22,447 nt of DNA from a virus: IMG/VR virus record IMGVR_UViG_3300032053_000574, positions 1-22,447 of that record, one strand, 5' to 3'. This document shows positions 6,312-22,447 of this stretch, one piece after another. The position numbers were made by a program, and so were the translations under genes. The first letter of the stretch is position 1, and the number at the start of each line of letters is the position of its first letter. The notes under the pieces are model-generated. The model was given only the letters and a program-made list of their open reading frames with translations, did no database searches and was not told the origin of the DNA.

Positions 6312-7038
6312 AATTTTTGAGGCGTATATTGCCGCTGATTCTGATGATGTACAGATATTTCCGGTATTAGAACTTTTTGGTATAGGTGAATGCGGCTTTG
6401 GTACAATAACAGTTGAGGCAGTGCCTTCTATCCGAAGCATGGACGCATATTTCCGCTGGACAGGCTTGTCTATTCCTAAAAATATACAAATTATTTCAGC
6501 CTACGTTATTTTCAAAGCCGCTACTTATAGTGTTGGCACAACATCACCTTGCAATATTTCTATCAAAGGGGAAGCCGCAGATAATCCGATTACTTTTTCT
6601 ACATACTCCAACTGTATCAATCGCATACAAACTAATAAAACAATTACATGGGACAATCTTGAAGTCTGGACTGCTAATAGTTTTTATCAATCACCGGAAT
6701 TAAAAGAAATTATTCAAGAAATTGTTGATCGTGACGGTTGGGAATCCGGTAATGCGATAGTTTTAATTTTTGAGGATAATGGATCATCCGGAACGAAATC
6801 ACGTCGCACACCAAGAGATTATAGTGATGGTGGCGTTCTTGCACAATTACATATTGAATATGGAGAAATTCCGTCTCCGAGTCCGTCTCCGAGTCCGTCT
6901 CCGAGTCCGTCTCCGAGCCCGTCTCCGAGCCCGTCTCCGAGCCCGTCTCCGAGTCCGTCTCCGAGTCCAACAGCACATAGACGATCAGTATTCATGTATA
7001 TCATTTGGGAATTTTTCAAACGCAGAGGTAAATTGTGA
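6304..7038 (+). CDS. Beta-sandwich module protein with Pro-Ser tail
   Basis: Residues 1-188 form one copy of the recurrent module. The landmarks are [19 protein letters not shown], a [15 protein letters not shown] stretch, [31 protein letters not shown] and a closing LHIEY. The pattern resembles DNRLRE/CBM96-type carbohydrate-binding beta-sandwiches found in secreted bacterial proteins; exact family unresolved. Residues 190-222 are a (PS)n run from eight 12-bp units. The last 22 residues hold a short hydrophobic patch ([10 protein letters not shown]) and a basic end (KRRGK), too short for a standard membrane helix. Its place between capsid and connector genes suggests a head or neck decoration that binds glycans. 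The ribosome site is weak, so translation may depend on the short upstream frame that overlaps the start by 8 nt. No secretion signal is seen. Confidence 0.75.
6871..6969 (+). repeat. Pro-Ser tandem array, eight 12-bp units
   Basis: A 12-bp unit (ccgtctccgagt) repeats about eight times and encodes Pro-Ser. The units differ only by AGT or AGC, in the order T,T,T,C,C,C,T,T. This grouping suggests duplication of neighbouring units. All six frames stay open through the array. Confidence 0.95.
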
Positions 7039-7613
7039 TTCTAAGCCTGATAGACTATAAAATTCTTGATGATAGTCCAAGTCCAAATGCTAATGATGAA
7101 CAAATAGAAGTGGCTATTGATTCGGCTACGGCAACAATTGAGAACCTGACTGGCAGAACATTCGCAGTTTTAAGCGCGTCACCTTCGCCCTCTCCGTCAC
7201 CAGTATTCACAGAAGAAATTCTTAACGGTAAGGGCAGTCTGCGTTTGTTTACAGATAACGGGCCGATTACCGCCATTGACTCAATTGCTTATTGGGATGG
7301 TAGCGCATGGGCTGAGTATGATGCAGTTTCATATCCATATACTTTCAAAGCCAATTCTAATTGCGTCTATTTCACTTTGGGACATAGGTTCTACAAGGGT
7401 TACCAAAATATCAAGATTTCATATTCCTACGGCTATGAAACAGTTCCCCAAGATTTGGTCTATGCTTGTTATCTTTTGACGCGCCACATTCTAAATGAGG
7501 CCGAACGTTCTGGTATTCGTTCACAGGGTGACGGTGAACAACGATTTGATTATGACCACGATGTACCGGCAGAAATCAACAAGATCATCATTCGTTACAA
7601 GACAAAGTGGTAA
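7035..7613 (+). CDS. Head-tail connector, HK97 gp6 type, with Pro-Ser insertions
   Basis: The 192-aa protein fits the gp6-like adaptor that docks on the portal ring. An N-terminal helix ([21 protein letters not shown]) is followed by the family's TGR.F stretch, [14 protein letters not shown] beta strands, a PITAIDSI strand, and a C-terminal helical part ([22 protein letters not shown]). Two Pro-Ser runs interrupt it: residues 14-17 near the N-terminus and residues 49-56 exactly in the loop between [10 protein letters not shown] and VFTEE, where relatives have a short turn. Both use mixed codons. The GTG start at 7035 overlaps the previous stop (GTGA), with AGAGG upstream. The connector call rests on motif order and genome position and is good; the inserted runs would lie on an exposed loop of the neck. 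Confidence 0.8.
7074..7085 (+). repeat. Short Pro-Ser run in connector (SPSP)
   Basis: Four codons, residues 14-17 of the connector. It is short and could be native sequence; listed because a clear second run follows in the same protein. Confidence 0.5.
7179..7202 (+). repeat. Pro-Ser run in connector loop, mixed codons
   Basis: Eight residues SPSPSPSP are coded by tca cct tcg ccc tct ccg tca cca. No 12-bp unit is left, which suggests an old array diversified at third positions while the protein pattern was kept. Confidence 0.85.
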
Positions 7614-7614
7614 T

Positions 7615-7833
7615 ATGAAAAAAGTTGAATGGATAGAAACAGACCTCGATATTTTTGAAGCTGCTATTCGACATAGAGGTATTGAGTACAAAGTCTGTGT
7701 TGAATCGGATTGTGAAAAATGGATTTACACGATTGTAAATGATGATATGGATTTGCCGGTTTGTAGTGCTGGTAGTTATGATACAAAAGAGGAAGCACAA
7801 GAAACGGCACTTGAGGAAATCTACAATGTCTGA
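7615..7833 (+). CDS. Small acidic protein of unknown function, 72 aa
   Basis: The ATG at 7615 lies 1 base after the connector stop codon, so coupling to the connector is likely; the frame is open further upstream but only over the connector gene. The protein is short and acidic with an alpha-beta pattern: EWIETDLDIFEAAIRHRGIE, then strands with EYKVCVESD and EKWIYTIVND, then a terminal helix (TKEEAQETALEEIYNV). It has no signal peptide or membrane segment. I do not recognise it. It lies between the connector and a neck protein and overlaps the latter by 8 nt (ATGTCTGA), so it is probably translated, but whether it enters the virion is unknown. Confidence 0.6.
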   Translation: MKKVEWIETDLDIFEAAIRHRGIEYKVCVESDCEKWIYTIVNDDMDLPVCSAGSYDTKEEAQETALEEIYNV

Positions 7834-8239
7834 TTTTAATATGTCCGTATCCTCAAAACCTGCCGGTTTCAAATCGCTTGCACTTGCTGAAGCCTTAAAG
7901 AATTTTGGCCAACTTCCGAAGCTCATGGTAGAATTGGGGCAAGTCGTTACCGAGAACATTAAAAATAATGCTTCCGGCACAATCCTTAACATCCGTTCTG
8001 GTAGACTCTGGCATTCGTGGAATTGGAGAGTCTCTGCTATAAATAACGGTTGGCAAACTACTATTGGTTCAGATTGTGTGTACGCCCGCATTCACGAAAT
8101 GGGCGGGTACACTGGAAGAAACCATAAGACACATATTCCAGCAAGGCACTACGTTTCGCTTGCATTGATAAAGTCGCATGTCAAAATCAACCAACTATTC
8201 AAGAATTTTGTAGCAAACTTATTTAGGCAACATGGCTAA
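7826..8239 (+). CDS. Neck / tail completion protein, HK97 gp10 or gpS-like
   Basis: The 137-aa protein carries the family signature YARIHEMGGYTG followed by HIPARHYVSLAL, seen in HK97 gp10-like neck proteins and in the gpS group of virion morphogenesis proteins. An N-terminal helix (LAEALKNFGQLPKLMVELGQVV) and the GRLWHSWNWRVS strand region fit as well. Such proteins join the filled head to the tail. The start is ATG 7826, set by GAGGAAATC upstream and by the 8-nt overlap with the previous gene, not the longer open frame. It ends 8 nt inside the next gene. The call is sound at superfamily level; it does not separate gp10 from gpS. Confidence 0.75.
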   Translation: MSDFNMSVSSKPAGFKSLALAEALKNFGQLPKLMVELGQVVTENIKNNASGTILNIRSGRLWHSWNWRVSAINNGWQTTIGSDCVYARIHEMGGYTGRNHKTHIPARHYVSLALIKSHVKINQLFKNFVANLFRQHG

Positions 8240-8639
8240 CACCAAGACTACGATATTGGATAATCTTGTCGAGCAACTGGCAACCATTACTGGAATAGCC
8301 AAGTCTACACGTATTTTGCTAACTCCAAATGAAGCGAGACAGCACTCGCCTTACATCGGATTGATTGCAGGCAGTGAAGAAGCCGTAGTAGAGGATATTA
8401 CCGATGTTCGCTATGAGCTTGAAGTCAATCTGATTTTGCTAAAAAAAGGACGCGATATTGAAACGATGCTGGACGATGTCAAGCAATTACTTTATGACTC
8501 AACACTTGCGGCCACAATTGGAGCATTGCAAGTTAGAATCATCGGCCAAGAAGAAGTTGCTCTTATCGATTCAGATGTCTATAGTTCGACAAGAATTGCT
8601 GCCATCATTACCTATGTCGCAAGCAAGGCGGGATTCTAA
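8232..8639 (+). CDS. Tail terminator-like protein, 135 aa
   Basis: Size, position and pattern suit the tail terminator that caps the tail tube and meets the neck. An N-terminal helix (ILDNLVEQLATITGI) leads to a PYIGLIAGSEE strand, an ELEVNLILLKKG strand, a central helix (IETMLDDVKQLLYDS) and a final strand RIAAIITYVAS. No membrane segment or signal is present. It overlaps its upstream neighbour by 8 nt and shares one base with the next start (TAATG). The next gene appears to have a related fold in its C-terminal part, so one of the two may be the terminator and the other a second neck protein. No invariant motif lets me choose. Confidence 0.6.
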   Translation: MANTKTTILDNLVEQLATITGIAKSTRILLTPNEARQHSPYIGLIAGSEEAVVEDITDVRYELEVNLILLKKGRDIETMLDDVKQLLYDSTLAATIGALQVRIIGQEEVALIDSDVYSSTRIAAIITYVASKAGF

Positions 8640-9658
8640 TGGGCTTTATTGAAACCGCACATAGCAAAATCGTTAATGTTTTGCAGGGAATTTTCGACCC
8701 CAGTCCATCACCTTCTCCGTCTAATTCAGGAGTTTATCATGAGAGAATTGCTTCGGAAGACGACGACTGCTATATTTATGTTCCTGATTCAAACATAAAT
8801 CTTGGGCCTCAGCTCTTAGTAGTTGGAAGTCAGGGCGGTTCATTAAATACTGGGATGCGTTGGCTTAACGTCGATATTCCTAAAGACGCAGTAATTTCTA
8901 CGGCGTACATAACCTTTATGTCGGCTGACAATACGCCGCAAACAGGTACAATAATACAGGCCGATTCAGCCTATATTCCCGCTACGTTTACTACTTATGA
9001 GGATTTTATCGCGCGGGTTTTTGGGGCAGAGTCGGTTCCATTTTTGATACTGGAGTGTGGTGACGGAGTTTCTTACGATACCCCAGAACTAAAGACAATA
9101 ATTCAGGAGATAATTGATGGGGTAGGATGGGAGTCAGGGAATCCTATCGCACTTTTCTTGAGTGATGACGGCACTTCGGTCTATTCGCAGGCAAACATTA
9201 GGGATTTTAGCTTAACGGGACAGTCACCCCTACTTCATATTGAATATTTAGCTCCAGTTCCGAGTCCAGAACCTTCTCCAGTTACAATCAATGTCTATGA
9301 GACTCACAAAGTTGCCAACTTGATAATTCCTGCTCTGAGTGTAGAAGTCGAAGCAATCACACCCTTAAAAGACGATAAGGCAATCAACAATCAGGAGCTA
9401 ATTGACAACTGGCTACAGCGATTTACGATCAAAATTCACACAGGTTATCGACTTGGAATACACGACACCGCCGGTTCACGCGCGATTGTCGATTTAGTAA
9501 TTCGACAACTGCGAGTTAGTACGAACTTGTCAGACGGATATCGGATATTTGATGTTGCCGGTGTTGCCTTTGATGTTGAACATAGAGAGAGCGGAACAAC
9601 CGGAGCGGAAATTCTGGTTGATGTCCATAAAGTTGAATATTATAATCAAACACTCTAA
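8639..9658 (+). CDS. Terminator-like neck protein with an inserted beta-sandwich module
   Basis: Three parts are visible. Residues 1-20 (IETAHSKIVNVLQGIF) look like the first helix of a terminator-like protein. Residues 21-28 are PSPSPSPS. Residues about 30-205 are the recurrent module (TGMRWLNVDIPKDAVISTAY, SYDTPELKTIIQEIID, GWESGNPIALFLSDDG, LLHIEY). Residues 206-214 (PVPSPEPSP) form the second linker. Residues 215-339 resume a phage fold: NVYETHKVANLIIPALSVEVEA, a beta region and VDVHKVEYY. Joining the two ends without the middle gives a protein of about 145 aa, close to the 135 aa of its neighbour and with the same helix-then-strand order. The simplest reading is a domain inserted into a loop and flanked by linkers. 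If the protein forms a ring, as terminators do, each ring would show several copies. That is inference. Confidence 0.7.
   Translation: MGFIETAHSKIVNVLQGIFDPSPSPSPSNSGVYHERIASEDDDCYIYVPDSNINLGPQLLVVGSQGGSLNTGMRWLNVDIPKDAVISTAYITFMSADNTPQTGTIIQADSAYIPATFTTYEDFIARVFGAESVPFLILECGDGVSYDTPELKTIIQEIIDGVGWESGNPIALFLSDDGTSVYSQANIRDFSLTGQSPLLHIEYLAPVPSPEPSPVTINVYETHKVANLIIPALSVEVEAITPLKDDKAINNQELIDNWLQRFTIKIHTGYRLGIHDTAGSRAIVDLVIRQLRVSTNLSDGYRIFDVAGVAFDVEHRESGTTGAEILVDVHKVEYYNQTL
8699..8722 (+). repeat. Left Pro-Ser linker of the inserted module
   Basis: Eight residues PSPSPSPS coded with mixed codons; residues 21-28, joining the N-terminal helix to the module. Confidence 0.85.
9254..9280 (+). repeat. 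Right Pro-Ser linker of the inserted module
   Basis: Residues 206-214 read PVPSPEPSP. A Glu and a Val replace Ser, so the run is old or under less constraint. It joins the module to the resumed phage domain. Confidence 0.75.
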
Positions 9659-9680
9659 CAATAAATGAGAGGACAAATTA

Positions 9681-10691
9681 ATGTCATCACTTGAAACCCG
9701 CCAATTACGATTTGGATATGTTGAACAAGACGCTTTCGACACACCAGAAGCTGACGATTCTGCCGTTAATGAGGTAACAGTCGAACCGTTTGATCTTGAT
9801 CCTGATGTTATGGTTCACGATATGCCAAAAGATCATGGCAGCCGAAGCCCTGTAGAACAAAATACAGTGCACTCCACTCTGGGGAGTACCGCCAAGTTTT
9901 CCGTTAAGGGGCCAGTTGATCTAAATGATATTGACCACTATCTATATTCGCATTTTCAGAAAGTTGTTGAAGCCGCTGGCCCGACATTTGGTAAAACGTT
10001 CACCTATTTTGATACACACCCAAGCTTCTCTCTTGATGAGGGGCACTACTTGACTTGGTTTAAGCGGCTACCCTCTGGCTCTCTTTCACAAAAAGCCGGT
10101 GGCTGTATTGCCAACAAGATCAAACTCTCTGCCGAACGTGATAAGATGCTATTATTTGAATCAGACTGGCTTTCACACGGTTCGCCAATTGACGATGCCG
10201 ATCCTGACGGCGTATGGACTCCGCGTGATGGCTCTAAATTGCTCTACTTTAATGATCTGACTGCTGCCAGTATTATTTATGGTGATAATCCAAGTCCAAG
10301 TCCTGATCCGAGTCCGGTCACAGCCACACTCAGTTCATTTGAAATCGAATGTAACTATGACGTAACAAAACTTGGCCACAATGCCGAACAAGGATATACT
10401 GACTTTGGGTTCAGCAACCGTTCCGGTAACTTCAAACTCAAACTCTTGCGCGATGTCGCTTCTGATGCCGCCTTTGCCGCGCTCAAGGCCGGAACGATCT
10501 GCCAGATTTCGCTTGCCTTCGGATCAACAATGACAATCGCTTTTTCAGGCAAGATCGAGAAAATTGATTATGATGCTGAGGGTCTTTTGATTGATAACAT
10601 TACCGGCAGACTCTTTTCGACACACACTGCCGATCAATGGGGAGAACTGATAGAAATTACGGTTGCCAACAGTATCGACCGTAGCTGGTAA
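9681..10691 (+). CDS. Major tail tube protein with a Pro-Ser loop
   Basis: The 336-aa protein has the position (between terminator and chaperone genes) and pattern of a siphovirus tube protein: an N-terminal FGYVEQDAFDTP, a strand region with AKFSVKGPVD, and a C-terminal beta part with FEIECNYDVTK, GNFKLKLLRDV and a TITF-like strand (MTIAFSGKIEKIDYDAEG). It polymerises as rings around the tape measure to form the tail. A linker PSPSPDPSP (residues 204-212) divides two beta regions at IIYGDN / VTATLSS. Some phages carry extra surface domains on the tube subunit; here there is only a linker and no domain. The AGAGGAC ribosome site is good. The tube call is reasonably secure; the linker lying on the outer face is inference. 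Confidence 0.75.
   Translation: MSSLETRQLRFGYVEQDAFDTPEADDSAVNEVTVEPFDLDPDVMVHDMPKDHGSRSPVEQNTVHSTLGSTAKFSVKGPVDLNDIDHYLYSHFQKVVEAAGPTFGKTFTYFDTHPSFSLDEGHYLTWFKRLPSGSLSQKAGGCIANKIKLSAERDKMLLFESDWLSHGSPIDDADPDGVWTPRDGSKLLYFNDLTAASIIYGDNPSPSPDPSPVTATLSSFEIECNYDVTKLGHNAEQGYTDFGFSNRSGNFKLKLLRDVASDAAFAALKAGTICQISLAFGSTMTIAFSGKIEKIDYDAEGLLIDNITGRLFSTHTADQWGELIEITVANSIDRSW
10290..10316 (+). repeat. Pro-Ser linker in the tail tube protein
   Basis: PSPSPDPSP, mixed codons with one Asp, residues 204-212. No domain follows it, so it is an empty linker. Confidence 0.8.
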
Positions 10692-10735
10692 ATCATTAAC
10701 TTGGGCTAATGCCCGATCACTCTAAGGAGTACAAA

Positions 10736-11161
10736 ATGCCATTACGCTTGGTAAACAAAGAACGCGCATATCCGATCACCGTTTGTGATACGGTATTCAA
10801 TATCGTTAGTATGACTGTCGGAGAGAAAGAGCAGTTGCTCTATAAACTCTCCGAAGTCCACAAAGAGGGTTTGCAAATTGGTGACACCTTCTCCAATTTA
10901 CTTGACCTGATTGCCCCCGCGATAAAGTCTGTTGATGGCTTTACTGATTCACCGCGTAAAATTCTTGGTATGCTTGAGAATTACGATCAAATCCAAATGA
11001 TCGTCAAGGCGGTTGTCGAACATTGTGGTCTTTCCGATACTGAAATAAAAAACTCATCCTCCTCGTTGGCGCAGCCTATTCCGGTATCGACGGGGAGTGC
11101 GGAGAAGCCTGTCGAACCGGAAGACGTGCTTGTTTTAGACAACAAAATTCCAACGATGTAA
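10736..11161 (+). CDS. Tail assembly chaperone, short form (gpG-like)
   Basis: This lies between tube and tape measure genes, the fixed place of the tail assembly chaperone in siphoviruses. The 141-aa protein starts LRLVNKERAYPITVCDTVFN, followed by helices (EKEQLLYKLSEVHKEG, RKILGMLENYDQIQMIVKAVVEHCG) and a Ser/Pro-rich end. I chose ATG 10736 because AAGGAGT lies 5 bases before it; the in-frame ATG at 10709 lies inside a small gggc/gccc hairpin and lacks a ribosome site. A canonical -1 slippery heptamer at 11047-11053 allows a second, longer product fused to the next frame. In lambda the analogous G and GT proteins hold the tape measure during tail assembly. Family resemblance is by position and frameshift rather than by sequence motif. 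Confidence 0.7.
   Translation: MPLRLVNKERAYPITVCDTVFNIVSMTVGEKEQLLYKLSEVHKEGLQIGDTFSNLLDLIAPAIKSVDGFTDSPRKILGMLENYDQIQMIVKAVVEHCGLSDTEIKNSSSSLAQPIPVSTGSAEKPVEPEDVLVLDNKIPTM
11047..11053 (+). promoter_or_regulatory. Probable -1 ribosomal frameshift site, A AAA AAC
   Basis: The heptamer is in the right register: codons ata, aaa, aac in the chaperone frame give X XXY YYZ. The -1 frame is open from 11044 through to the stop at 11517. A 12-bp stem with one bulged A and a 19-nt loop can form at 11079-11122. The stem starts 25 nt after the heptamer, further than the usual 5-9 nt. Confidence 0.65.
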
Positions 11162-11181
11162 TTGTTGTCAAAGGCCAGAAT

Positions 11182-11517: not shown

Positions 11518-13476
11518 ATGGCAACCGGACAAGAAAAATTCCAGATAGTTTTTGAAGCACAGGAAAACGCCTCTGCTAAAATTCGAGAATTGTCTGCGCG
11601 TCTTGCCGAACTCGGCGGCCCCCAAATGGTCAAGTCTCAAAATGAGATTAAGAAACTTGAGAGACAAATTGACCAGTTATCCGGAACAGCAAAAAAAGGT
11701 TCTGATTATTTCTCTCACATGGCCGAGAGTTTCGCTATTGGCTCATTAGCCGCTGCCGGAGCACAAAAGGCTATGAGTTTCTTAACAAGTGCTGTTAAAG
11801 AGATGTGGACGGCAACGCTTGAGGGCGAGACCGCAGCAATCCAATTGAAAGGCGCACTTGATCGTCTTGGTTTAGGAACTGAAGCAAACCTTGCTGCGAT
11901 CAATCAATTTGCTATGGGAATCGCCCGCACAAGGGGGGAATCAGACGAATTAGTGAAATCAATAACAGGGCGGCTGCTTGCTGCGGGATTATCGTGGTCA
12001 CAAACACAGGGATTAATCAGTGCGGCATTAAACTCCGCAGCGGCAAGAGGAAAAGAATTTGGTGAGGTTATTGAGTCTCTCACTGTCTCAATGGAGACAA
12101 ATAAAGTTCGTGGATTTCGTGCGTTAGGCGTTGATGTTGAGCACGCTAAAACTGCTTTTGAAGCCTTAGAGCCGGCTATTAAAGAAGCAGAAAGACTCTA
12201 CGGATCACAAGCTCAAATAGCTGCCGGATCAATGGCAACAAGGGTTAAGACACTCGGAGAAGCTTGGCATAATGCTTTAGAGGAAATTGGTGAGGGTAAC
12301 AAAGGGGCCATTAAAGGTACAACCAGTCTTCTTACACAGTTTGTAGAGCAGTTACCAAAAATGATTGCAGGGATGAAGGGATTTGCACTTGGGGGTTTAT
12401 TTGGTCAAATGCGCGCCGGTGTTGAATACGATATGGAAAAAATCAAAGAGTCAGTCAAGGCGACCAGTGCTTCATTTGGAGAAGGCCCACCTGTTGATAT
12501 TGCAAAGTGGCAAGAACAAATTAAAGCCGGTTATGATGCCCGACAAAAAATAATAGATGCAGCAGCAATTAAACAAAAAGAAATAGACAACGCAGCTCAA
12601 AAAGAGGCCGAGAAAGCCCGCGATGCTTTACTTGCTGTTTGGAAGGGCTATGAAAATACACGACAAAAAACTCAAGATGATATTTTTGCCGCTTCTCTAA
12701 TTGGTGAGACCGCCTCTACTCAAGCAATAATGAAAGTCAAAGAAGCCTATGCTCGCAGAGTCAATGAGATTGATTCAACAATGTATGCCAGTCACGAAGA
12801 GTGGTCAAAAGCGCGACAGGCAAATGATGCACTATACGCGGCAGCTTTAGCTCAAGCCGAAGCTGATGCCAGAGCAGCGAAAATTGAGTTTGACAAAAAA
12901 GCATTTGACGAATCAAGAAACTTGGCAGAAGAAAATCAGACTTTTGCAGAGAGTACATTAGAACAAATTCAAAGTGGAATGACTGCTTCTGTAAGTGCCA
13001 ACTTACAAGCCTTTGTACATGGTAGAGCAAACTTAGCACAAGTATTCAAGGGTATGGCCTCTGACTTCTATAACATATTCGTAAAAGCGGTTCTTGATTA
13101 TGTTGCCAAAACTTTGGTAGTAAAATTGGTTGCAATGTTAGGCGGGATATTCGATAACCCAACAAATGACCGCATGGCCGCAAAACAAGGTTCAGACTTT
13201 GCTTTTCATTTTCAGCGCGGCGTGCTCGGAATGTTGGGTAACAATCTCGCAGCGGGAATCGGCCAACAAAATCGCATCACTCCGATTGCGCAAACTGCTG
13301 GCGGTAGCGGCGGAACAATAGTAATGAATGTATCTATTTCTGGCAACATTCTTTCGGACGGTTTTATTGAGGATACTGTTGCCCCGAAATTACAGAGGCT
13401 AATAACGGGTAAACGATCTAACTTAGCTGTTAGCCCAGAACATAAAACTGGAAGTCGTGATGTTCGATTCAACTAA
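11518..13476 (+). CDS. Tail tape measure protein, 652 aa
   Basis: Features are typical: a helical N-terminal part with coiled-coil periodicity (residues 15-58), an Ala/Gly-rich hydrophobic segment (about 71-92), a second one (about 280-300), a long charged helix rich in Ala, Glu and Lys (about 335-490), and a C-terminal region with VKAVLDYVAKTLVVKLVAMLGGIF. The end, GGTIVMNVSISGNILSDGFIEDTVAPKLQR, matches the usual tape-measure terminus. It sets tail length and is released with DNA. Using the general figure of about 0.15 nm per residue, the tail would be near 100 nm. It starts directly after the previous stop and overlaps the next gene by 17 nt. No lytic domain or peptidase motif is visible. 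No Pro-Ser run is present, as expected for a protein inside the tube. Confidence 0.88.
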   Translation: MATGQEKFQIVFEAQENASAKIRELSARLAELGGPQMVKSQNEIKKLERQIDQLSGTAKKGSDYFSHMAESFAIGSLAAAGAQKAMSFLTSAVKEMWTATLEGETAAIQLKGALDRLGLGTEANLAAINQFAMGIARTRGESDELVKSITGRLLAAGLSWSQTQGLISAALNSAAARGKEFGEVIESLTVSMETNKVRGFRALGVDVEHAKTAFEALEPAIKEAERLYGSQAQIAAGSMATRVKTLGEAWHNALEEIGEGNKGAIKGTTSLLTQFVEQLPKMIAGMKGFALGGLFGQMRAGVEYDMEKIKESVKATSASFGEGPPVDIAKWQEQIKAGYDARQKIIDAAAIKQKEIDNAAQKEAEKARDALLAVWKGYENTRQKTQDDIFAASLIGETASTQAIMKVKEAYARRVNEIDSTMYASHEEWSKARQANDALYAAALAQAEADARAAKIEFDKKAFDESRNLAEENQTFAESTLEQIQSGMTASVSANLQAFVHGRANLAQVFKGMASDFYNIFVKAVLDYVAKTLVVKLVAMLGGIFDNPTNDRMAAKQGSDFAFHFQRGVLGMLGNNLAAGIGQQNRITPIAQTAGGSGGTIVMNVSISGNILSDGFIEDTVAPKLQRLITGKRSNLAVSPEHKTGSRDVRFN

Positions 13477-14287
13477 CTTTTGCACATTTGAAGTTATGGA
13501 CGGGGCGAAAGTCCAACTGGTTTCAAGTCAGAATCCTTTGCACCCTGCCGAACATGCAATTTCCCCACTTGAACCAAATATGGCATGGGAAGCAAACGGA
13601 GACACTGAGCAGCATACTCTCACAGTTATTTTGCCAGAAACAAAGTCAGTAGACGGGTTTTTATTTATTCACCATGAGACTGATACTCTGCTACTGTCAA
13701 TAGAAATTTCAGTGGAGTCTTCTGGTAATGGAACAAGCTGGTCTTCAGTCTCTATTGAAGAATTGAGAGATTACGGGCCGCCCTATCAAATAAAATTGCG
13801 GCGTTTTGTTAATGCAATCTCTGCCCGTTATTGGCGTTTTACCATTTCAAGCGCTGTAGCCTTTGAGGGAAACTATATTATCGGTAGTGCCCCTGATGAC
13901 ACTCGGATTAGTGCCCTTTGGTTATTTACATCCCACGAGTTAGACTGTGGAGCAATTCTACCAATTAACGATCAAACAAGTTTTTCCAATAACGAAATTC
14001 AATTACCCGCCGGTAAGCAATTTACAACGGGATATGGAGTCAACTCGTCAATCAATATTAATCGCTCATGGGCAGTTAATGATGCTCAAAGAGAGACCCT
14101 ATGGTCTGTTATTCGTAATTGTAATGGAATTTTTCGACCTTTTCTTTTTATTGATCTTGACGGAACTCGCCATCTTTGCAGACTGGCTTCAAATTCTATT
14201 TCTGAAACCGTTCTTGATATTGGACTATTTCGTCTGGAATGGTCTGCGATTGGAATTCCAATTGTAAAAATGGATAAGTACCACTAA
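13460..14287 (+). CDS. Distal tail-type protein with discoidin-like N-terminal part
   Basis: The first gene after the tape measure usually encodes the distal tail protein. Residues about 15-155 show a discoidin (F5/8 type C)-like pattern: NMAWEANGD, LTVILPETKSVDGFLFI, IEISVESSGNGTSWSSV, NAISARYWRFTIS, and RISALWLFTSHE. Residues about 200-275 (SSININRSWAVNDAQRET, NGIFRPFLFIDLDGTRHLCR, GLFRLEWSAIGIPIV) have the look of a tail-hub domain. It could bind a surface sugar while forming part of the baseplate ring. I chose ATG 13460 with GGAAG 5 bases upstream; a GTG at 13457 is too close to it. The fold reading is moderately sure; the role is inferred from position and shared layout with the next gene. 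Confidence 0.6.
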   Translation: MFDSTNFCTFEVMDGAKVQLVSSQNPLHPAEHAISPLEPNMAWEANGDTEQHTLTVILPETKSVDGFLFIHHETDTLLLSIEISVESSGNGTSWSSVSIEELRDYGPPYQIKLRRFVNAISARYWRFTISSAVAFEGNYIIGSAPDDTRISALWLFTSHELDCGAILPINDQTSFSNNEIQLPAGKQFTTGYGVNSSININRSWAVNDAQRETLWSVIRNCNGIFRPFLFIDLDGTRHLCRLASNSISETVLDIGLFRLEWSAIGIPIVKMDKYH

Positions 14288-15141
14288 TGAATTGCAGTCT
14301 TTTAACTCCTGTACGGGCATTGCCGATTTTAACAGCTGGTTGCAATACCTCCAATATTGTTGTCGGCCATGAACCCATATTAGTCCTCAATAATGATCCC
14401 GACACTTACTGGAAGCCAAGTATCAGAACCGGAATATCTTTATATATTGATCTTGGTTTGAGTACAGTTGTAGATGCTGTTGCTCTGTGGCTACAGTCCT
14501 ATAACGAAGATTGGGCGGACTCAAAACAGTGGGAAGTATCCTTTAGCAACGATGATATAACATATACATCATCTACTACTTTTAATTTCGCCGATCAGCG
14601 CACTTCTCAAAAAGAGCCGGTTATTGTTGGAATGTTAGCTTCTCCGGTCAATGCCCGTTATTGGCAAGTCGAATTTTTGAATTTCCAGAATGCCCCCAGT
14701 ATGCTTCCCCATATTAGCTGTCTTTGGTTTCTGAATGATTATTCTCTCAAACGCAACTATCAACTTTCAGAAAAAATCAATTACAATTACTTATCCTTAG
14801 GAGTTCGTTCGCAATCGGGACAACAACTAAGTCCTCGATTTACAAACTTTGGCTTTCAACGAACATTTGATCGCACGTTTATCTTTACTGATATCGTTGA
14901 ATGGGGGAAATTACAAGACGCCTATGCCGCCGTATGTGGATATAATCTTCCAATCTTTATCCAATTAGAGGGAATTGCAGGAGCCTATCTCGCTGGTTTC
15001 TTTATCTCGAATTTACAGACAGCGTATCAAGAATACCACTATTGGCAACCAACTGTATCAATTATTGAAATGGGTTTCAAGCGTGTTCCTACAGATGCAG
15101 AAGGATTTACAGACTATGGCGAATGGGGAATAAAATGTTAA
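14287..15141 (+). CDS. Second tail protein with discoidin-like N-terminal part
   Basis: The 284-aa protein repeats the layout of its neighbour. Residues about 25-155 again look like discoidin: NNDPDTYWKPS, LYIDLGLSTVVDAVALWL, WEVSFSNDDITYTSS, NARYWQVEFLN, and HISCLWFLNDYS. The remainder (RFTNFGFQRTFDRTFIFTDI, GYNLPIFIQLEG, SIIEMGFKRVP) parallels the C-terminal part of the neighbour in length and strand pattern. The two genes probably arose by duplication, though identity is low. It starts at TAATG, sharing one base with the previous stop. A tail-tip role with glycan binding is likely but inferred. No Pro-Ser run, membrane segment or enzyme motif is visible in either gene. Confidence 0.6.
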   Translation: MNCSLLTPVRALPILTAGCNTSNIVVGHEPILVLNNDPDTYWKPSIRTGISLYIDLGLSTVVDAVALWLQSYNEDWADSKQWEVSFSNDDITYTSSTTFNFADQRTSQKEPVIVGMLASPVNARYWQVEFLNFQNAPSMLPHISCLWFLNDYSLKRNYQLSEKINYNYLSLGVRSQSGQQLSPRFTNFGFQRTFDRTFIFTDIVEWGKLQDAYAAVCGYNLPIFIQLEGIAGAYLAGFFISNLQTAYQEYHYWQPTVSIIEMGFKRVPTDAEGFTDYGEWGIKC

Positions 15142-18100
15142 TCAGAAGTAGTCATTTTGAGCAATATTCTCAAATTTCTGGTATGCAACGTGATACAATT
15201 GTTGCCATCTATAAAAATGCAGGAGTAACCGGACTGAGTCCGTCTCCGAGTCCGTCTCCGAGTCCCAATACAAATAACGTATATCTATTCTCTACCCGTC
15301 CTATGCCACGCGGTCTTGATGGAATTCCTGTATATCCAATGTTACTTAGTCATAATGCTGTTTCTGAACGTATTGATATCTTTAACAAGCAATTTCAAAT
15401 AGGTGATGTCAAAGTCACGCTGTCTAATATGCCTTTTTATCCCATAGAGGGTGAAATCCCAGTTAGTGCCGATATGCTACTTCAGGATATAAATGGAAGC
15501 CAATGTCAAATTTATCAATGGGTAGATGGAATTGCATCTTTAGCAGATTGCCTATTTATTTTTAACGGCACAGTGTTACAAACTCCCGATGTTACTGGTA
15601 AGACCTTTTCCTTTTCAGCACAGAATCCTAGTAAACTATGGGATACAGTTTTACCCCCATACCGTGTAGGTGATATTTTTCCAAATGCTCCTACTGAGAC
15701 AATTAATGAGCCTGTGCCCCTTGTCTATGGGATTTTTAATATTGCTGATCCTTATGACGCAGCGATTCATCCAACAGGGCTTGTTAAGGCGTTAGCAACT
15801 ACGGAGTTTCTTAGTAGCCACTATGTTGTTGCTTTTGAAAAAGCTCTCAATAACTATTACAATAGCAATGTAATCAATACATATCGGGATATCGGCGGGC
15901 CGACGGTTTTACCCCCATTTTATGCACGCGATTGGAATGGCTTTAAGTATATTAACGGAATTCTTTACGCATATATTGGACTGACTGCCGGACAGTGGGG
16001 CACCGCGCTTTTCGAGTTATCGGCGACGCTACCAAATACAATTGTTGGTGCTGAAGTCTATAATGATGAAAGATTTTTTGAGTCTGAATCAGACCGAATA
16101 AAGTTATGCGACAGCCTTCAAAACACTGCTTGTAGATTTAGAGATCGTTTAATCGATTTTGCGGGATTTACAGGGGGTAGGGCACTTTTTGGGATTCAAT
16201 ATAACAATATTTTTCGTAAACATATTCTCAATACCGGCTATGCGACTATTAATTACGTAGGCGTATCTGGAATTTCCCCTATTCTTAATAGTTACGTACA
16301 ATATTTGAAATTCTTTCTCTATTACGGGCACACTTTAGAACATGTGGATCAACGAATACAAATGGGCTATGCCGCAAAAAGTAGTTGGGGCGGTAACCCT
16401 GTTTTGTTATACACAGATAATCTTATCCACTCTGCGAGTTATGAAGACCCCGACTTAAAATGGTCAGCAGATGCCAGTATGTTAACTACAGAAACCCCCG
16501 CTGAACTTCTTGCATTAGGCATTGAGAGTTTAACAACCGGAGGCAATAGTGTTGTTAATGACCAATTCATATTGCAAATAGCCGGTGTGTCTTTATTATA
16601 TAGATGGACTGTTGACTTTTTTCAGCCTATCTGTTGGGCGACTTGCGCAGGTAAGGGTATTAGTATTGAGTTCTTTGACTCCCCCGAAGACCCCTATCGT
16701 AGCAATTTTCCTTATCGTTTAGGGGCAGTTATTGAAGACCCTATTTCAATAATTGAAGACTTGTATCGAACTCATCTTGGTTTTACTGCCGATAATATTG
16801 ATCTTCCAAGTTTTGATCTCGCTGTAGACCAAATAATCAAAGCCCGTATCAATGTCACCACACAAACAAAATTAAGTGATATCGTTCAGCAATTATCAGA
16901 ACAAAGTACATTCTTAATTTGTGCCAGTAGTACCGGAATTTTACGCGCTGTCTCTCTAAACAATGCCACACCCATTAAAGCTGCTACGATCTTTCGTGGG
17001 CAGTTAGTTGATGATACACTGGATATTTCAAAAACAGATTTCATTATTAATAAGCTCGCTATTCATTCAAGTTGGCAAGCCGAATACAACCGCTTCAAAG
17101 ACCTCGATACTTATGAAGATATGTTATCGCAAAGTCAGTTGAAAATTCGGACAGGGACTTATGAATGGCCAAATATCAATGGGAATAGTGCAGCAAGAGT
17201 CGCTACTTTTTATGTCAATCCTGTTTCTGGTTTGTGGTCAAAAGAGCATATTCAAGTAAGATTTTCCACTGCCGGTTTCATGCACTCCTATTTACAAGTC
17301 GGCGATTGGATTCAACTTAATTCTGATATAAATGAATTACTGACAGCCTTTGGTGACCCTTGGCAAACAATTCCTTTAATGGTTGTTGATATTGAACGTG
17401 ATCTATTACAAACTACGATTACAGCAATAGCAGTCCCTTCTACTCCGTGGGTTATTCCGCCAGAATCCCCCAGTCCCTCACCTTCTCCGAGTCCGTCTCC
17501 GAGCCCCTCGCCAAGTCCCTCACCTTCTCCGAGTCCTTATGGAGAAGCAATCGCAATTATTCATCCACAGGGCGCATCAAATTATGGTGAAATCACCACA
17601 ATCAATGTCGGCGATGGCGGCCAACTTGATGAAATCGAACTTGATAATGAAGAAATTGTTGCGGCTGAAATTCGTTATCCGGCTTCGTGTCATATTGTTG
17701 ATGATTACTATGCAATGATTGCACATGATAGCAATAATTACCCAACATTAAGGACTTATAGAATAGAAATTGACGGTACAATTACTGCAATTGATTCATG
17801 GCTATTCAATGGCAATGTTTCACAATATGGTGCGGCAATTACCAATGCTGGCGGCGGGTATTTTGCTCTCTGGTATCGTACGCCTGCTGCTCCTGACACA
17901 CTTGATGTCACTGCAACAGGTGCAAGTAATAATTGCTATGTTATTCCCTCAATATCATATTATTCTTCCAATCCTCTGTTTATGGGAAGTCAAGGCGGTG
18001 CAGATACAACAAAAGCAGGAATGCGTTGGCAGAATATTACTGTCCCCAAAAATGCAACTATTACATCTGCGTATGTGACTTTTGTTTCATCAGGCTCTCT

Positions 18101-20345
18101 CAGTGCTAATACTTGCAATTTGATCTTTACCGGAGAGGCCGCCGATAATCCAATAGCCTTTTCTACCTATTCAGATTTTGCAGCGCGTTCTGTTGGATCA
18201 GCATCAAACCCTTGGAATGCTGTTGGTTCTTGGATAAATAACCAATCTTATCAATCACCAGAATTAAAAACTATTATTCAGGAGATTGTTAATCGTAGTG
18301 GTTGGGTTTCTGGCAATGCTATGGTTCTTTTTTGTAGCGATCATGGGTCAACATCGAATGTTTATCGACAGGCATCGGTTCAAACTGCGCAACTTCATAT
18401 TGAATATGGTGACGCAGGAGTTACTGGCGGCATAGTTAGTACGGTTGCGATCAATGATGAGGGGATTATTACTGAGACGCTAATAGATACTGTCAATTTT
18501 GACGATTCCAGTGGAGACTCACCTGCCCGTATTACGGCGCAGAAAGTGGAGAACTCCAATGTTCATGTTTTTTCTTATCATCAGTATTTAATTGACACTA
18601 CTCCGAGTCCGTCTCCGAGTCCGTCTCCGAGTCCGTCTCCGAGTCCGTCTTGGGTCGCTAAAATAAAAAGTATTCTTATCGCTCCTGATACTGGTGATAT
18701 TGGTACTGTAATTGATACAATCACATCAGCGACTTTTGCTTCTAATAATACTCTTAGATGCAATTCCAGTTTATGTCAAATCAACCCGTCTTCAAATATG
18801 TGGGCAGCAGTTTATAGTATTGATGGGGCAACTGCGTCTCTGATAACTTTCACTTGTGACCCAGATTCCGGCGATCTTTCTGCTGTACTTGATAATGAAA
18901 CTACGGCACTCGCAAACTCAGGAATTTCCCTGTGGCATTGTGATATCTATCCCATTTTTGCCGATAACAATCGCATTGTAATAACGTGGACACAGGGAAA
19001 TAATAATGGTTCAATTCAAACCGCATCAGTTAATTTAATTTCAGGAGCGATTACTCTGCTGGATGCGGAAACAATCGCTAACGATGTTTGTAAGCCGTGT
19101 TCAATTGTTGTGGCTGATGGAATATTATTAATTTGTTATACAGTTGATACCAGCGATGCCGGAGTAATCAAAACCTATAGTCTTGCTACTGATGGAACAA
19201 TTACTCTAATTGATACATGGAATTGGGGAACTAATCGAAATGGGGGATATACAGGTTACCGTAGCTATCTTCAAAATCTCGGCGAACCATCTTTACCTAT
19301 TAATTACCCACGGGGTCGCTATGGTTCTCAAACTCCGATTGCTGATGATTTCTTAGTCCCGCTGAACTCAAAAATTCTTGACGGGAATACCACAGTTGAA
19401 ATAGGAAGTTTATATGGACATGTATCTGCTAATGACCACTATTGTATAGAGTGGGCAAGTCCGGTATGGTTACTCCTTAATCTCGGCACATATATGCATT
19501 TGCCGACATTTATCGCCCGTTTAGATCGGCCAATTTCGTCATTAACACACGGCAGTTGTTATATCTATTGTAGTGACGATAATCTTCATTGGACACAAAT
19601 AGGCACATTGCGCACTATTGAGAATAGCGGTCTACAGGTTCCACATTCTGTACCTTATGCTGACAAAACGTATTTACTTATTTATGGAGATGGCTCACTC
19701 GCTCCAAGTCCAGAACCCGAACACAAATACTGGAAATTTGCTTTTGTTGAACCTCTCGGAGACGAAGCAACTGTGGGGATTACTGAAATTTATGATACGG
19801 GGTATGTTGTGCCATTATCCCCTTCGCCAAGTCCAAGTCCGGTTGAGCCAAGCATTGAACCAAGTCCAAGTCCGTCACCCTCTCCAAGTCCTCAAGAGAA
19901 TGTTACCGGCTATTATGGACATCAATGGCCGGCCGCAAGCAATATCACACTGGCTTCCAATACGGCTCTAACAGACAATATTACAAGCGTTGAAATTGGA
20001 TCAGAACACGGGTTTATTGCCACTGATGACCAATACGGTTTAGGTTTTGATGCGCCTACACCAATTCCTTATTACAGAACCTTTACTGCTACTTTGGATC
20101 GAAATTGTGGACAATTAATACGTGGGGCTTGTCTCCTCTACTATAGCGATGATAATTCGCATTGGACGCAGTGGGGAACACTAAGAACAATTTCAAATGG
20201 CGGAATTGGTAAAATTGCCGCTAATGAGATTATTATTATTCGTGATGGTGTAGCCTCATCACATCTGTATTGGAAATTTGTTGTCGTTGAAGCATTTTGG
20301 GATGGTGCAACTATTGGAATAACCGAACTTAAAGCAGGAACATAA
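15135..20345 (+). CDS. Large modular tail-tip / host-recognition protein, 1736 aa
   Basis: The start is ATG 15135 (GGGGAA 4 bases upstream), not the earlier ATG 15123. Residues 1-770 look like a tail-hub part: a strand domain (QIGDVKVTLSNMPF), FNGTVLQTPDVTGKTFSF, the LPPYRVGDIFPNAP and EPVPLVYGIF stretch common in phage tip proteins, then IEDLYRTHLGFT and a late hub-like WIQLN region. Residue 35-44 and 778-801 runs are Pro-Ser. Residues 802-917 and about 1094-1360 have propeller-like four-strand repeats (TYRIEIDGTITAIDSW, TYSLATDGTITLIDTW). A beta-sandwich module (920-1093) lies between them and a Pro-Ser run (1157-1172) lies inside the second part. Two discoidin-like repeats end the protein (about 1367-1560 and 1590-1736; SDDNLHWTQIGTLRTI and SDDNSHWTQWGTLRTI), with another Pro-Ser run (1562-1586) between. 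It should sit at the tail end and bind the host surface. Confidence 0.75.
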   Translation: MLIRSSHFEQYSQISGMQRDTIVAIYKNAGVTGLSPSPSPSPSPNTNNVYLFSTRPMPRGLDGIPVYPMLLSHNAVSERIDIFNKQFQIGDVKVTLSNMPFYPIEGEIPVSADMLLQDINGSQCQIYQWVDGIASLADCLFIFNGTVLQTPDVTGKTFSFSAQNPSKLWDTVLPPYRVGDIFPNAPTETINEPVPLVYGIFNIADPYDAAIHPTGLVKALATTEFLSSHYVVAFEKALNNYYNSNVINTYRDIGGPTVLPPFYARDWNGFKYINGILYAYIGLTAGQWGTALFELSATLPNTIVGAEVYNDERFFESESDRIKLCDSLQNTACRFRDRLIDFAGFTGGRALFGIQYNNIFRKHILNTGYATINYVGVSGISPILNSYVQYLKFFLYYGHTLEHVDQRIQMGYAAKSSWGGNPVLLYTDNLIHSASYEDPDLKWSADASMLTTETPAELLALGIESLTTGGNSVVNDQFILQIAGVSLLYRWTVDFFQPICWATCAGKGISIEFFDSPEDPYRSNFPYRLGAVIEDPISIIEDLYRTHLGFTADNIDLPSFDLAVDQIIKARINVTTQTKLSDIVQQLSEQSTFLICASSTGILRAVSLNNATPIKAATIFRGQLVDDTLDISKTDFIINKLAIHSSWQAEYNRFKDLDTYEDMLSQSQLKIRTGTYEWPNINGNSAARVATFYVNPVSGLWSKEHIQVRFSTAGFMHSYLQVGDWIQLNSDINELLTAFGDPWQTIPLMVVDIERDLLQTTITAIAVPSTPWVIPPESPSPSPSPSPSPSPSPSPSPSPSPYGEAIAIIHPQGASNYGEITTINVGDGGQLDEIELDNEEIVAAEIRYPASCHIVDDYYAMIAHDSNNYPTLRTYRIEIDGTITAIDSWLFNGNVSQYGAAITNAGGGYFALWYRTPAAPDTLDVTATGASNNCYVIPSISYYSSNPLFMGSQGGADTTKAGMRWQNITVPKNATITSAYVTFVSSGSLSANTCNLIFTGEAADNPIAFSTYSDFAARSVGSASNPWNAVGSWINNQSYQSPELKTIIQEIVNRSGWVSGNAMVLFCSDHGSTSNVYRQASVQTAQLHIEYGDAGVTGGIVSTVAINDEGIITETLIDTVNFDDSSGDSPARITAQKVENSNVHVFSYHQYLIDTTPSPSPSPSPSPSPSPSWVAKIKSILIAPDTGDIGTVIDTITSATFASNNTLRCNSSLCQINPSSNMWAAVYSIDGATASLITFTCDPDSGDLSAVLDNETTALANSGISLWHCDIYPIFADNNRIVITWTQGNNNGSIQTASVNLISGAITLLDAETIANDVCKPCSIVVADGILLICYTVDTSDAGVIKTYSLATDGTITLIDTWNWGTNRNGGYTGYRSYLQNLGEPSLPINYPRGRYGSQTPIADDFLVPLNSKILDGNTTVEIGSLYGHVSANDHYCIEWASPVWLLLNLGTYMHLPTFIARLDRPISSLTHGSCYIYCSDDNLHWTQIGTLRTIENSGLQVPHSVPYADKTYLLIYGDGSLAPSPEPEHKYWKFAFVEPLGDEATVGITEIYDTGYVVPLSPSPSPSPVEPSIEPSPSPSPSPSPQENVTGYYGHQWPAASNITLASNTALTDNITSVEIGSEHGFIATDDQYGLGFDAPTPIPYYRTFTATLDRNCGQLIRGACLLYYSDDNSHWTQWGTLRTISNGGIGKIAANEIIIIRDGVASSHLYWKFVVVEAFWDGATIGITELKAGT
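15237..15266 (+). repeat. Pro-Ser run near the N-terminus of the tip protein
   Basis: Ten residues (residues 35-44), mostly the pure 12-bp unit, in the first domain between TGL and NTNNVYLF. No domain follows it. Confidence 0.9.
17466..17537 (+). repeat. Pro-Ser run between hub and propeller parts
   Basis: Twenty-four residues (778-801). Two pure 12-bp units are embedded in mixed-codon Pro-Ser sequence, so old and new repeat material lie together. Confidence 0.9.
18603..18650 (+). repeat. Four perfect 12-bp Pro-Ser units inside the propeller part
   Basis: Exactly four identical units (ccgagtccgtct), residues 1157-1172, between QYLIDTT and WVAKIKSI. It interrupts a propeller-like repeat, with no domain attached. 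Confidence 0.92.
19704..19718 (+). repeat. Short PSPEP in a discoidin-like repeat
   Basis: Five codons (residues 1524-1528) between YGDGSLA and HKYWKF. The sister repeat downstream has RDGVASSHLYWKF here, without it. Confidence 0.6.
19818..19892 (+). repeat. Pro-Ser run between the two discoidin-like repeats
   Basis: Twenty-five residues (1562-1586) of Ser-Pro with VEPSIEP in the middle; codons are mixed and mainly agt cca. Confidence 0.9.
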
Positions 20346-20360
20346 ACAAAGAAGGTAACA

Positions 20361-20453
20361 ATGGGAATTTTTTCAGTACTCAGTAACACCATAAAGCCGG
20401 TCTGTGACTTGGTTGACAGTCTACACACATATAGAGGAGAAAAACATGGCTGA
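20361..20453 (+). CDS. Short ORF, 30 aa, like the N-terminus of a phage holin-type protein
   Basis: An ATG with a good AAGAAGGT site begins a 30-aa frame that stops at the TGA inside ATGGCTGA, the start of the next gene (8-nt overlap). The residues GIFSVLSNTIKPVCDLVDSL recall the N-terminus of three-helix holin-like phage proteins (GTA holin type), which continue with a charged EEK-rich stretch and membrane helices. Here the sequence ends after HTYRGEKHG, with no membrane segment. It may be a truncated remnant now serving to couple translation of the next gene, or a coincidental short gene. The likeness is from memory of the family and is weak. Confidence 0.4.
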   Translation: MGIFSVLSNTIKPVCDLVDSLHTYRGEKHG

Positions 20454-20871
20454 TTTTAACAAATTTCGATCTTTTGTAGAAGCACAGGCCGAGAAAGTCC
20501 ATAATCTTGGTTCTGACGATTTGCGATTAGCTTTGACAAATACTGCCCCTGTGAATACTGATAGTTTGTATACAGTGGGGGCTTTTCCTGTACCGGCTGC
20601 GGCTAATAACTATCCGTCAGGTGGTGGAGACTTGGCAATTTCAAGTTCGGCACAGTCTTCAGGATTATACAAACTTTGTATTACCGACTTTACTTTCACA
20701 GCTACGGCAGGGGGTATTGGGCCGTTTAGATATGCAATTTTGTATAACAACAGTGCCACTAACAAAGAACTAATTGGTTGGTGGGATTACGGTTCGGCAC
20801 TGACTCTTGCTGTTGATGATAGTTTGCTTTGCGATTTTGATGGTGCTAATGGAGTTTTGACAGTAGAATAA
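20446..20871 (+). CDS. Small phage virion protein, FNKF...VHNLGSD family, 141 aa
   Basis: The start FNKFRSFVEAQAEKVHNLGSD, the middle SSAQSSGLYKLCITDFTFTATAG, and the end FRYAILYNNSATNKELIGWWDYG with DFDGANGVLTVE are a pattern seen in a widespread group of small beta-rich proteins near tail or fibre genes in many phages. No enzymatic motif, signal or membrane segment is present. A strong AGAGGAG sits 6 bases before ATG 20446, which is why I reject the longer open frame from 20404. It shares one base with the next ORF (TAATG). It probably forms a trimeric or other virion surface part, but the exact role is not known to me. Confidence 0.65.
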   Translation: MADFNKFRSFVEAQAEKVHNLGSDDLRLALTNTAPVNTDSLYTVGAFPVPAAANNYPSGGGDLAISSSAQSSGLYKLCITDFTFTATAGGIGPFRYAILYNNSATNKELIGWWDYGSALTLAVDDSLLCDFDGANGVLTVE

Positions 20872-20990
20872 TGGCACTGGTTGTAGGAACAAACGTTGGA
20901 TTCGTTAGAGTGCGACCAACAGCAGACCTCGCAGGAACAGCGGGAACAGCGGGAAAAGCAATGCCGAGTACCGCGCCTTTGGCCTTATGA
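20871..20990 (+). pseudogene. Truncated fibre-type ORF, 39 aa
   Basis: The start MALVVGTNVGFVRVRPTAD follows the opening of a common phage fibre-type family (VVGTN.GFV..APTADP), which continues for over 100 residues. Here it goes into [19 protein letters not shown] and stops. The last 12 residues ([12 protein letters not shown]) are in the 39-nt repeat also found at 6249-6287, read in the same frame. It looks like a gene cut at the junction where the repeat and the adhesin gene were joined. It may still be translated and couple to the next gene, whose ATG lies 12 bases after the stop. Confidence 0.5.
20949..20987 (+). repeat. 39-nt exact direct repeat, copy 2
   Basis: Identical to 6249-6287 and 14.7 kb away from it. 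It ends 15 bases before the ATG of the second module-first gene. The surrounding bases are not alike. Confidence 0.9.
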
Positions 20991-21002
20991 GAGTAGATTG
21001 TA

Positions 21003-22447
21003 ATGGAACACATTCTTACACGTAATATAATCAGTGATAATGATGATTGTCGAGTTGATGTTACAACTACGACTATTGGTTTAACTGACCCACTTACTAT
21101 GGGGAAGTCAACTACTGATACCTATCATTCCGGTTGCCGGTTTCAAAATATCGCCCTTCCAAAAAATACTAATATTATCTCAGCAACAGTAACATTTAGG
21201 GCTGCCGGTGGGCAAACGGGTGAAACTTGTAATTTAATTATTAAGGGCGAAGCAATAGACGATGCGCCACAATTTTCTACATACGCTGATTTTATGGGAC
21301 GCGCCCGCACTGACGGTGTAGCATGGGATGCAGTTGAGGCGTGGTCTGTAAGTGATAACTACTACACATCAACCAATTTTGCTTCTGTAATCCAAACACT
21401 TGTTAATCGTGATGGTTGGGTATCTGGTAATGATATTGTGATATTTTTTGAAGATAACAATTCTTCAGCAAGTGCGCGGCGTGCTGGGCGTGATTATAGT
21501 TATAACGCTTATGGACAGGTGCAGTTATCAATAACTTATGATACTACACCCAGTCCGTCACCTTCACCTGGGCCGGAAATTTTTGAACAAACTATTTTAG
21601 GCAGTACCGACGATTGCTATACTAATGTTACCAGTTCAACAATTACTCTTACCTCTTCCTACAACCGTGTTGGCAGGCTTACTGATAACTTTTCTATGGG
21701 ACTGCGATTTACCAATATTACAATTCCAAATGGCAAAATTGTTTCTAATGCCTATATTAAATTACGAGCAACTGCCAATTTTTCCGGTGATACTTGTAAC
21801 GCTAAGATTGCTGGCGAAGACGTTGATGATGCTTTGACCTTTTCAACTTATGCAGATTTTGCAGCGCGTACACGAACTGCTTCAGTGGCATGGAATGCAA
21901 TATCGCACTGGGTAAAAGGTGTGGTATATAATTCTCCGGATATTTCGGCAATAATTCAAACAATATTTGATCGTGAAAGTTGGGTATCAGGTAATAGTCT
22001 TGTCCTTTTTGTAGAAAACAATGGTTCAACCGGCAGCGGGTATAGGGATGCTTATAGTTACAATGCTTATCATTATTATGCTCCGGTTCTTCACATTGAA
22101 TATACTGCACCAGTCATAAATACTCTTACGTGTGTTCAGGGCACATTCACTCTTGTTGGCAAACCGGTTACATTTGTGGTTACACGTGTAATGGGTAAGG
22201 GCACATTCACTCTTGTTGGTAAGCCGGTTACATTTATAGTTACACGTGTAATGGATATGGGGACAGGAGTATTCTCATTACTCGGTAAAGCATTAGAATT
22301 TATACTTCATATCTTTGCTTCTCCGAGTCCGTCTCCGAGTCCGTCTCCGAGTCCGTCTCCGAGTCCGTCTCCGAGCCCGTCTCCGAGTCCGTCTCCGAGT
22401 CCGTCTCCGAGTCCGTCTCCGAGTCCGTCTCCGAGCCCGTCTCCGAG
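21003..22447 (+). CDS. Modular adhesin / fibre-type protein (3' partial)
   Basis: The frame opens at ATG 21003 and has no stop before the right edge, at least 481 codons. Residues about 1-181 are the module (FQNIALPKNTNIISATVTF, an IIKGEAIDDAPQFSTYADF stretch, RDGWVSGNDIVIFFEDNNS). PSPSPSPGP (183-191) links to a second copy (about 193-370; GLRFTNITIPNGKIVSNAYI, SPDISAIIQTIFDRESW, VLHIEY). Then come three 20-residue units with GTFTLVGKPVTF, a G-x-F-x-L-x-G repeat seen in other phage proteins, and finally a (PS)n array from residue 440 to the edge. The gene directly follows the truncated ORF with a modest GAGAG site. The likely role is a surface-binding fibre or decoration protein. The C-terminal part is unseen. 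Confidence 0.8.
   Translation, partial: MEHILTRNIISDNDDCRVDVTTTTIGLTDPLTMGKSTTDTYHSGCRFQNIALPKNTNIISATVTFRAAGGQTGETCNLIIKGEAIDDAPQFSTYADFMGRARTDGVAWDAVEAWSVSDNYYTSTNFASVIQTLVNRDGWVSGNDIVIFFEDNNSSASARRAGRDYSYNAYGQVQLSITYDTTPSPSPSPGPEIFEQTILGSTDDCYTNVTSSTITLTSSYNRVGRLTDNFSMGLRFTNITIPNGKIVSNAYIKLRATANFSGDTCNAKIAGEDVDDALTFSTYADFAARTRTASVAWNAISHWVKGVVYNSPDISAIIQTIFDRESWVSGNSLVLFVENNGSTGSGYRDAYSYNAYHYYAPVLHIEYTAPVINTLTCVQGTFTLVGKPVTFVVTRVMGKGTFTLVGKPVTFIVTRVMDMGTGVFSLLGKALEFILHIFASPSPSPSPSPSPSPSPSPSPSPSPSPSPSPSPSPSPSPSPSP
21549..21575 (+). repeat. Pro-Ser linker between tandem modules
   Basis: PSPSPSPGP (residues 183-191) in mixed codons joins the first and second modules of the adhesin. Confidence 0.85.
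22140..22319 (+). repeat. 60-bp direct repeats, G-x-F-x-L-x-G units
   Basis: Units at 22140-22199 and 22200-22259 agree at about 54 of 60 positions. A diverged third unit fills 22260-22319. Each encodes 20 residues around FTLVGKPVTF or its variant FSLLGKALEF. Confidence 0.85.
22320..22447 (+). repeat. Pro-Ser tandem array at the right edge
   Basis: More than ten 12-bp units (tctccgagtccg) run off the window. Four AGT units then one AGC unit recur, so two 60-bp blocks at 22320-22379 and 22380-22439 are identical. True length is unknown because the window ends here. Confidence 0.95.

Follow-up and report, generated by a model that had tools for sequence, protein, structure and literature searches.

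Pro-Ser runs and a carbohydrate-binding-like module in the virion genes of an uncultured tailed phage

Structural genes and Pro-Ser runs

The window analyzed here is the entire IMG/VR record IMGVR_UViG_3300032053_000574 (22,447 bp), which derives from an uncultured tailed phage. Its gene set reads as that of the head, neck, and tail of a siphovirus-like phage. The gene order is terminase, portal, capsid with a prohead-protease-like part, gp6-like connector, neck protein, and tail terminator candidate, followed downstream by a tail-tube candidate, a gene of tape-measure length, two genes with F5/8-type C domains (13457-14287 and 14287-15141, the match of the latter lying just below Pfam's cut-off), a tip protein of 1740 residues, and an adhesin gene. 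The capsid gene (2959-5319) is an apparent fusion with a prohead-protease domain (Peptidase_S78 plus Phage_capsid). Rfam had no match anywhere in the window. The close relatives found number only three, all of them short, and contigs L016 to L018 contain no tRNA genes. Six genes of the window carry runs of alternating proline and serine (Pro-Ser runs):

6304-7038, + strand: module gene; a stand-alone module domain (6304-6870), a Pro-Ser array (6871-6969), and a short basic/hydrophobic tail
7035-7613, + strand: gp6-like head-tail connector; matches the family profiles Phage_connect_1 and phrog_442
8639-9658, + strand: gene 8639, terminator-like by position and earlier label; run, module, and run between a 20-residue N-terminus and about 125 residues
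9681-10691, + strand: tail-tube candidate; phrog_290 minor tail protein, E 4e-5
15123-20345, + strand: tail tip protein, 1740 residues, six runs, one module
21003-22447, + strand: adhesin gene, open at the contig end; module, Pro-Ser run, module, 20-residue repeats, Pro-Ser array

All 13 of the runs that an earlier note had described in these genes exist, and they occur far above chance:

6871-6969, + strand: 12-bp array in the module gene, CCGTCTCCGAGT x8.25, encoding (PS)16P
7179-7202, + strand: connector run SPSPSPSP, codon-mixed, an insertion missing from the homologue on contig L116
8699-8722, + strand: gene 8639 run PSPSPSPS, codon-mixed, on the N side of the module
9260-9280, + strand: gene 8639 run PSPEPSP, codon-mixed, on the C side of the module
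10290-10316, + strand: tail-tube candidate run PSPSPDPSP, codon-mixed, internal to the protein
15237-15266, + strand: tip 12-bp array near the N-terminus, without an adjoining module
17466-17537, + strand: tip run (SP)12, partly array and partly codon-mixed
18603-18650, + strand: tip 12-bp array, x4, (PS)8, 100% identical to the unit
19704-19721, + strand: tip short run PSPEPE
19818-19841 and 19860-19892, + strand: two codon-mixed runs in the C-terminal part of the tip
21549-21569, + strand: adhesin codon-mixed run between two modules
22320-22447, + strand: adhesin 12-bp array, x10.7 (run 22320-22445, open at the contig end), continuing off the record end

Pure alternating runs of at least six residues make up 10 of the 13. 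When the residues of the same proteins were shuffled 2000 times, 1996 shuffles gave no pure run and four gave one, versus the ten observed. At the DNA level, the 12-bp unit with at most three mismatches occurs 47 times versus 8.5 expected, and no out-of-frame or opposite-strand 12-bp arrays are present in the window. The count of 13 is a lower bound since the record ends inside an array. The related L016 contig likewise ends in a Pro-Ser array, for which the simplest explanation would be that repeated arrays of such length break assemblies; a search for an extension beyond 22447 returned only L016 as having the array in common at a contig end.

The runs are of two kinds. Four runs (6871, 15237, 18603, and 22320) qualify as 12-bp arrays, with TCT and AGT in strict alternation and 96-100% identity to the unit; the run at 17466 is an array only in part (68% identical). 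The remaining eight are 50-75% identical to the unit, lack the TCT/AGT alternation, and mix TCN and AGY serine codons. Tandem 12-bp periodicity is accordingly a property of the first four and part of the fifth, not of all 13 runs. Thus four or five runs are homogenised 12-bp DNA arrays while eight are a Pro-Ser protein pattern without the 12-bp unit. Codon differences from the unit over all runs comprise 48 synonymous changes, 15 serine-family switches, and four amino acid changes, counts that are biased toward synonymous changes by the choice of runs on their protein pattern. A serine-family switch requires two base changes, usually via another residue, and so the mixed runs are not merely decayed copies of an array. 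The codon-mixed runs are better evidence for protein-level constraint than the 12-bp arrays.

This distinction bears on the earlier proposal that the runs are selected surface linkers because one and the same 12-bp unit is read as Pro-Ser every time. Eight of the runs do not consist of that unit, and an array copied from another inherits its frame, so the frame argument fails, and a test of thirteen frames at one in three each was rejected since the frames are non-independent. Protein-level constraint and a linker role are nevertheless supported on other grounds, namely the nearly exclusive synonymous variation, the position of the runs at domain edges, and an insertion of 11 columns in the connector. 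The terminase, portal, capsid, and tape measure do indeed lack runs, as had been noted, but the inference drawn from the buried position of these proteins is unsupported: counted by gene, such an absence has p of about 0.16 (C(14,6)/C(18,6)), and both F5/8-type C genes are also without runs.

A beta-sandwich module adjoining the runs

What the first reading missed is a domain of about 180 residues that most of the runs serve. This module is a beta-sandwich, and its five copies (27-42% mutual identity) are distributed over four of the six genes that have runs:

6304-6870, + strand: module copy of the module gene, directly followed by the run at 6871
8723-9259, + strand: module copy of gene 8639, with runs on both sides
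17892-18419, + strand: module copy of the tip protein
21003-21548, + strand: module copy 1 of the adhesin, directly followed by the run at 21549
21570-22120, + strand: second module copy of the adhesin, not part of the clade formed by the other four

The runs at 6871, 8699, 9260, and 21549 directly abut modules. Gene 8639 has no family match, and the module-bearing proteins are assigned to the virion from gene order. In the adhesin, a 60-bp repeat (22138-22265, 2.1 copies) encodes a 20-residue GTFTLVGKPVTF-type repeat directly before the terminal array.

The module has no match above cut-off in Pfam, PHROGs, or NCBIfam (DNRLRE is weak, E 0.11) and no Ig-like Pfam match. An AlphaFold model from a six-sequence alignment (pLDDT 84) gave Foldseek matches to a chondroitin-sulfate carbohydrate-binding module (CBM; 8wab, E 6e-6, TM 0.66) and to an alginate CBM (7vbo, E 2e-4, TM 0.50). 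Sequence identity in these fold matches is about 10%, and beta-sandwiches other than CBMs, such as TGF-beta prodomains, are also among them; viral matches include phage tail proteins and one protein named as CBM96-containing. The predicted fold is CBM100/CBM96-like, and the model suggests that the module binds carbohydrate. Pattern searches found the module in at least 70 cellular and at least 62 viral loci, which indicates an uncatalogued module family. In a tree of 208 rows, four of the window modules and the L016 module form one clade (SH-aLRT 98), showing that the module spread within this lineage.

The runs in the connector, the tail tube, and the N-terminal part of the tip are short insertions without an adjoining module, so part of the run set is unexplained by module tethering. 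The connector run is an 11-column insertion in the alignment with the L116 homologue (E 4.6e-10), and a model of the connector (pLDDT 51) has coil at the run but is too weak to fix its position. Connector matches on L014 and L015 were dropped as they rest on a common WDGSAW motif only. For the connector and the tail tube, a PDB sequence search gave nothing useful and tblastn matched no phage record; the tail tube has no relatives in the viral_contigs or phages collections, and the loci fetched contain no tip homologue for the run at 15237. L116 also carries a neck-type gene (L116:1138-2607) into which, as read by eye, an intein with an endonuclease-like central part seems to be inserted.

Tethers, exchange, and other explanations of the runs

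We consider it probable that the virion is decorated at several sites for adhesion to glycans and that the Pro-Ser runs serve this decoration as extended, disordered tethers. A carbohydrate-binding-like module would have been duplicated within the lineage into a stand-alone gene, the terminator-like gene, the tail tip, and the adhesin, with Pro-Ser stretches that carry the module or hold it apart from the structural core. The short stretches of the connector, tube, and tip would be module-free tethers or loops, perhaps remnants. If the runs are exposed at the surface, many glycan contacts, each of them weak, may together keep the virion reversibly close to the surface of the host or to its extracellular polysaccharide. 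The tethers of greatest length, being 12-bp arrays, could become longer or shorter by slippage or unequal recombination. Slippage, recombination, and array exchange would all keep the frame, as 12 bp correspond to complete codons.

A comparison with L016 raises the possibility that the in-frame arrays are mainly shared homology for module exchange between virion genes or phages, with a secondary linker role. The terminase, portal, capsid, and gene 5414 of L016 have 85-90% DNA identity to those of the window. In the module gene, identity drops to about 54% from codon 6 across the domain and recovers at the array; this puts the L016 module about as far from its window counterpart (54%) as the tip and adhesin modules of the window lie (51%). 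The L016 module is thus about as divergent as a paralogue while the ends of its gene stay constant, which fits replacement of the module between those ends. An identical 39-bp element also lies upstream of two module genes:

6249-6287, + strand: 39-bp hairpin element upstream of the module gene, stem GGCGCGR/YCGCGCC
20949-20987, + strand: second, identical copy of the 39-bp element, upstream of the adhesin gene

In the L016 copy (L016:9809-9847), two changes compensate within the predicted hairpin at one pair; the element has no Rfam match. A small ORF (MALVVGTNVGFVRVRPTADLAGTAG..., 20872-20990) ends before the adhesin and is possibly the remnant of a longer gene. The replaced module allele between codon 6 and the array, the repeated element, the four near-identical 12-bp arrays in three genes, and the spread of module copies within the lineage are all as exchange would predict. 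Nevertheless, the replacement is a single one, in one relative whose contig ends in an array, the runs flanking the module of gene 8639 have mixed codons and have diverged too far for ordinary homologous recombination, and loop runs without modules are left unexplained. Exchange as the main role of the arrays is unlikely. A related proposal, that the arrays, set in loops of neck, tube, tip, and adhesin genes, are frame-safe sockets that receive binding modules by recombination (filled in the module gene and gene 8639; empty in the connector, tube, and N-terminal part of the tip), is likewise unlikely. If exchange at the arrays does occur, it would offer phages a simple route for shuffling adhesion domains with reading frames intact.

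Neutral replication slippage, tolerated in exposed loops or linkers with a frame set by the founder and without function, would account for the near-perfect, slippage-type 12-bp arrays that make up the long runs and for the restriction of runs to some genes. We regard it as quite unlikely, as eight runs keep Pro-Ser despite scrambled codons with TCN and AGY mixed, the runs lie at domain edges, and the same module is adjoined by Ser/Pro-rich linkers in independent phages (contigs L095, L096, L097, and L129). The modules of L095 to L097 form a separate clade (SH-aLRT 99), and with these and L129 the pairing of module and linker must have arisen more than once.

A role of the runs as acceptor sites for O-glycosylation, or for some other modification coating or shielding the virion, is most improbable: PMC3490864 describes linkers between carbohydrate-active domains of secreted enzymes as often glycosylated, and an ORF of L016 (2293-3015) resembles by eye an FkbM-type methyltransferase, but no glycosyltransferase is seen in the window and the tie of the runs to the module would be unexplained.

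Relation to known virion decoration

The tethered decoration favored here has precedents. The 936 lactococcal siphophages carry carbohydrate-binding modules in the neck passage structure, in an extension of the major tail protein, and in Dit; binding was demonstrated for two modules and higher avidity was proposed (PMC6669499). The window phage is similar in having binding-type modules in several virion proteins (here five copies in four genes), and the statement of the earlier note that no described phage is known with one linker type in so many structural proteins leaves these phages out. They differ in that their modules are BppA-like and others, the tail extension is made by a programmed frameshift, and their binding is experimental where that of the window module is predicted. 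The Pro-Ser arrays are a feature of the window, being unreported for the 936 phages (the word "proline" is absent from PMC6669499). Ig-like domains are also found in structural proteins of tailed phages, including tail tubes (PMC8718954), and weak carbohydrate binding has been proposed for them. There too a single domain type is appended to or inserted in structural proteins, but the window module has a CBM-like beta-sandwich fold and occurs together with Pro-Ser runs. CBM96 (7vbo, PMC9971899) and the chondroitin-sulfate CBM (8wab) share with the module a beta-sandwich fold and similar size, although at about 10% identity the module shows no family match to them at the sequence level.

An extended form is known for proline-rich linkers that join carbohydrate-active domains (PMC10598543). 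The Pro/Ser/Thr-rich linkers of multimodular cellulases and LPMOs resemble those of the window as low-complexity, extended tethers that join a CBM to another domain (PMC10598543, PMC3490864). The window linkers, in contrast, belong to phage virion proteins, are partly 12-bp arrays, occur in several genes of one genome, and include short insertions. A limited literature search found no description of a single Pro-Ser linker type in six virion genes. On this analysis, the window phage is best explained as a variant of the known decoration of virions by binding modules, akin to the CBM-decorated 936 phages; it would extend such decoration to one linker type in six genes, core neck and tail-tube proteins included.

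In a scan of IMG/VR for Pro-Ser-like runs, the matches listed included no contig with the module, and Pro-rich runs, mostly Pro-Thr, occurred there in no more than three genes of any one stretch. Further parallels are L095, L096, L097, and L129, which like the window combine the module with long Ser/Pro low-complexity linkers. Their linkers are SPSx rather than PSPS, are found in one or two genes per stretch, and were not seen in a connector or tube. In L097 (6012-7891), a small phrog_644-like gene lies just upstream of an adhesin that has the module and Ser/Pro linkers, and this contig too ends in the linker. Very long SPSx low-complexity proteins adjoin the module at L096:3-2900, L096:3795-5735, and L095:9962-11938.
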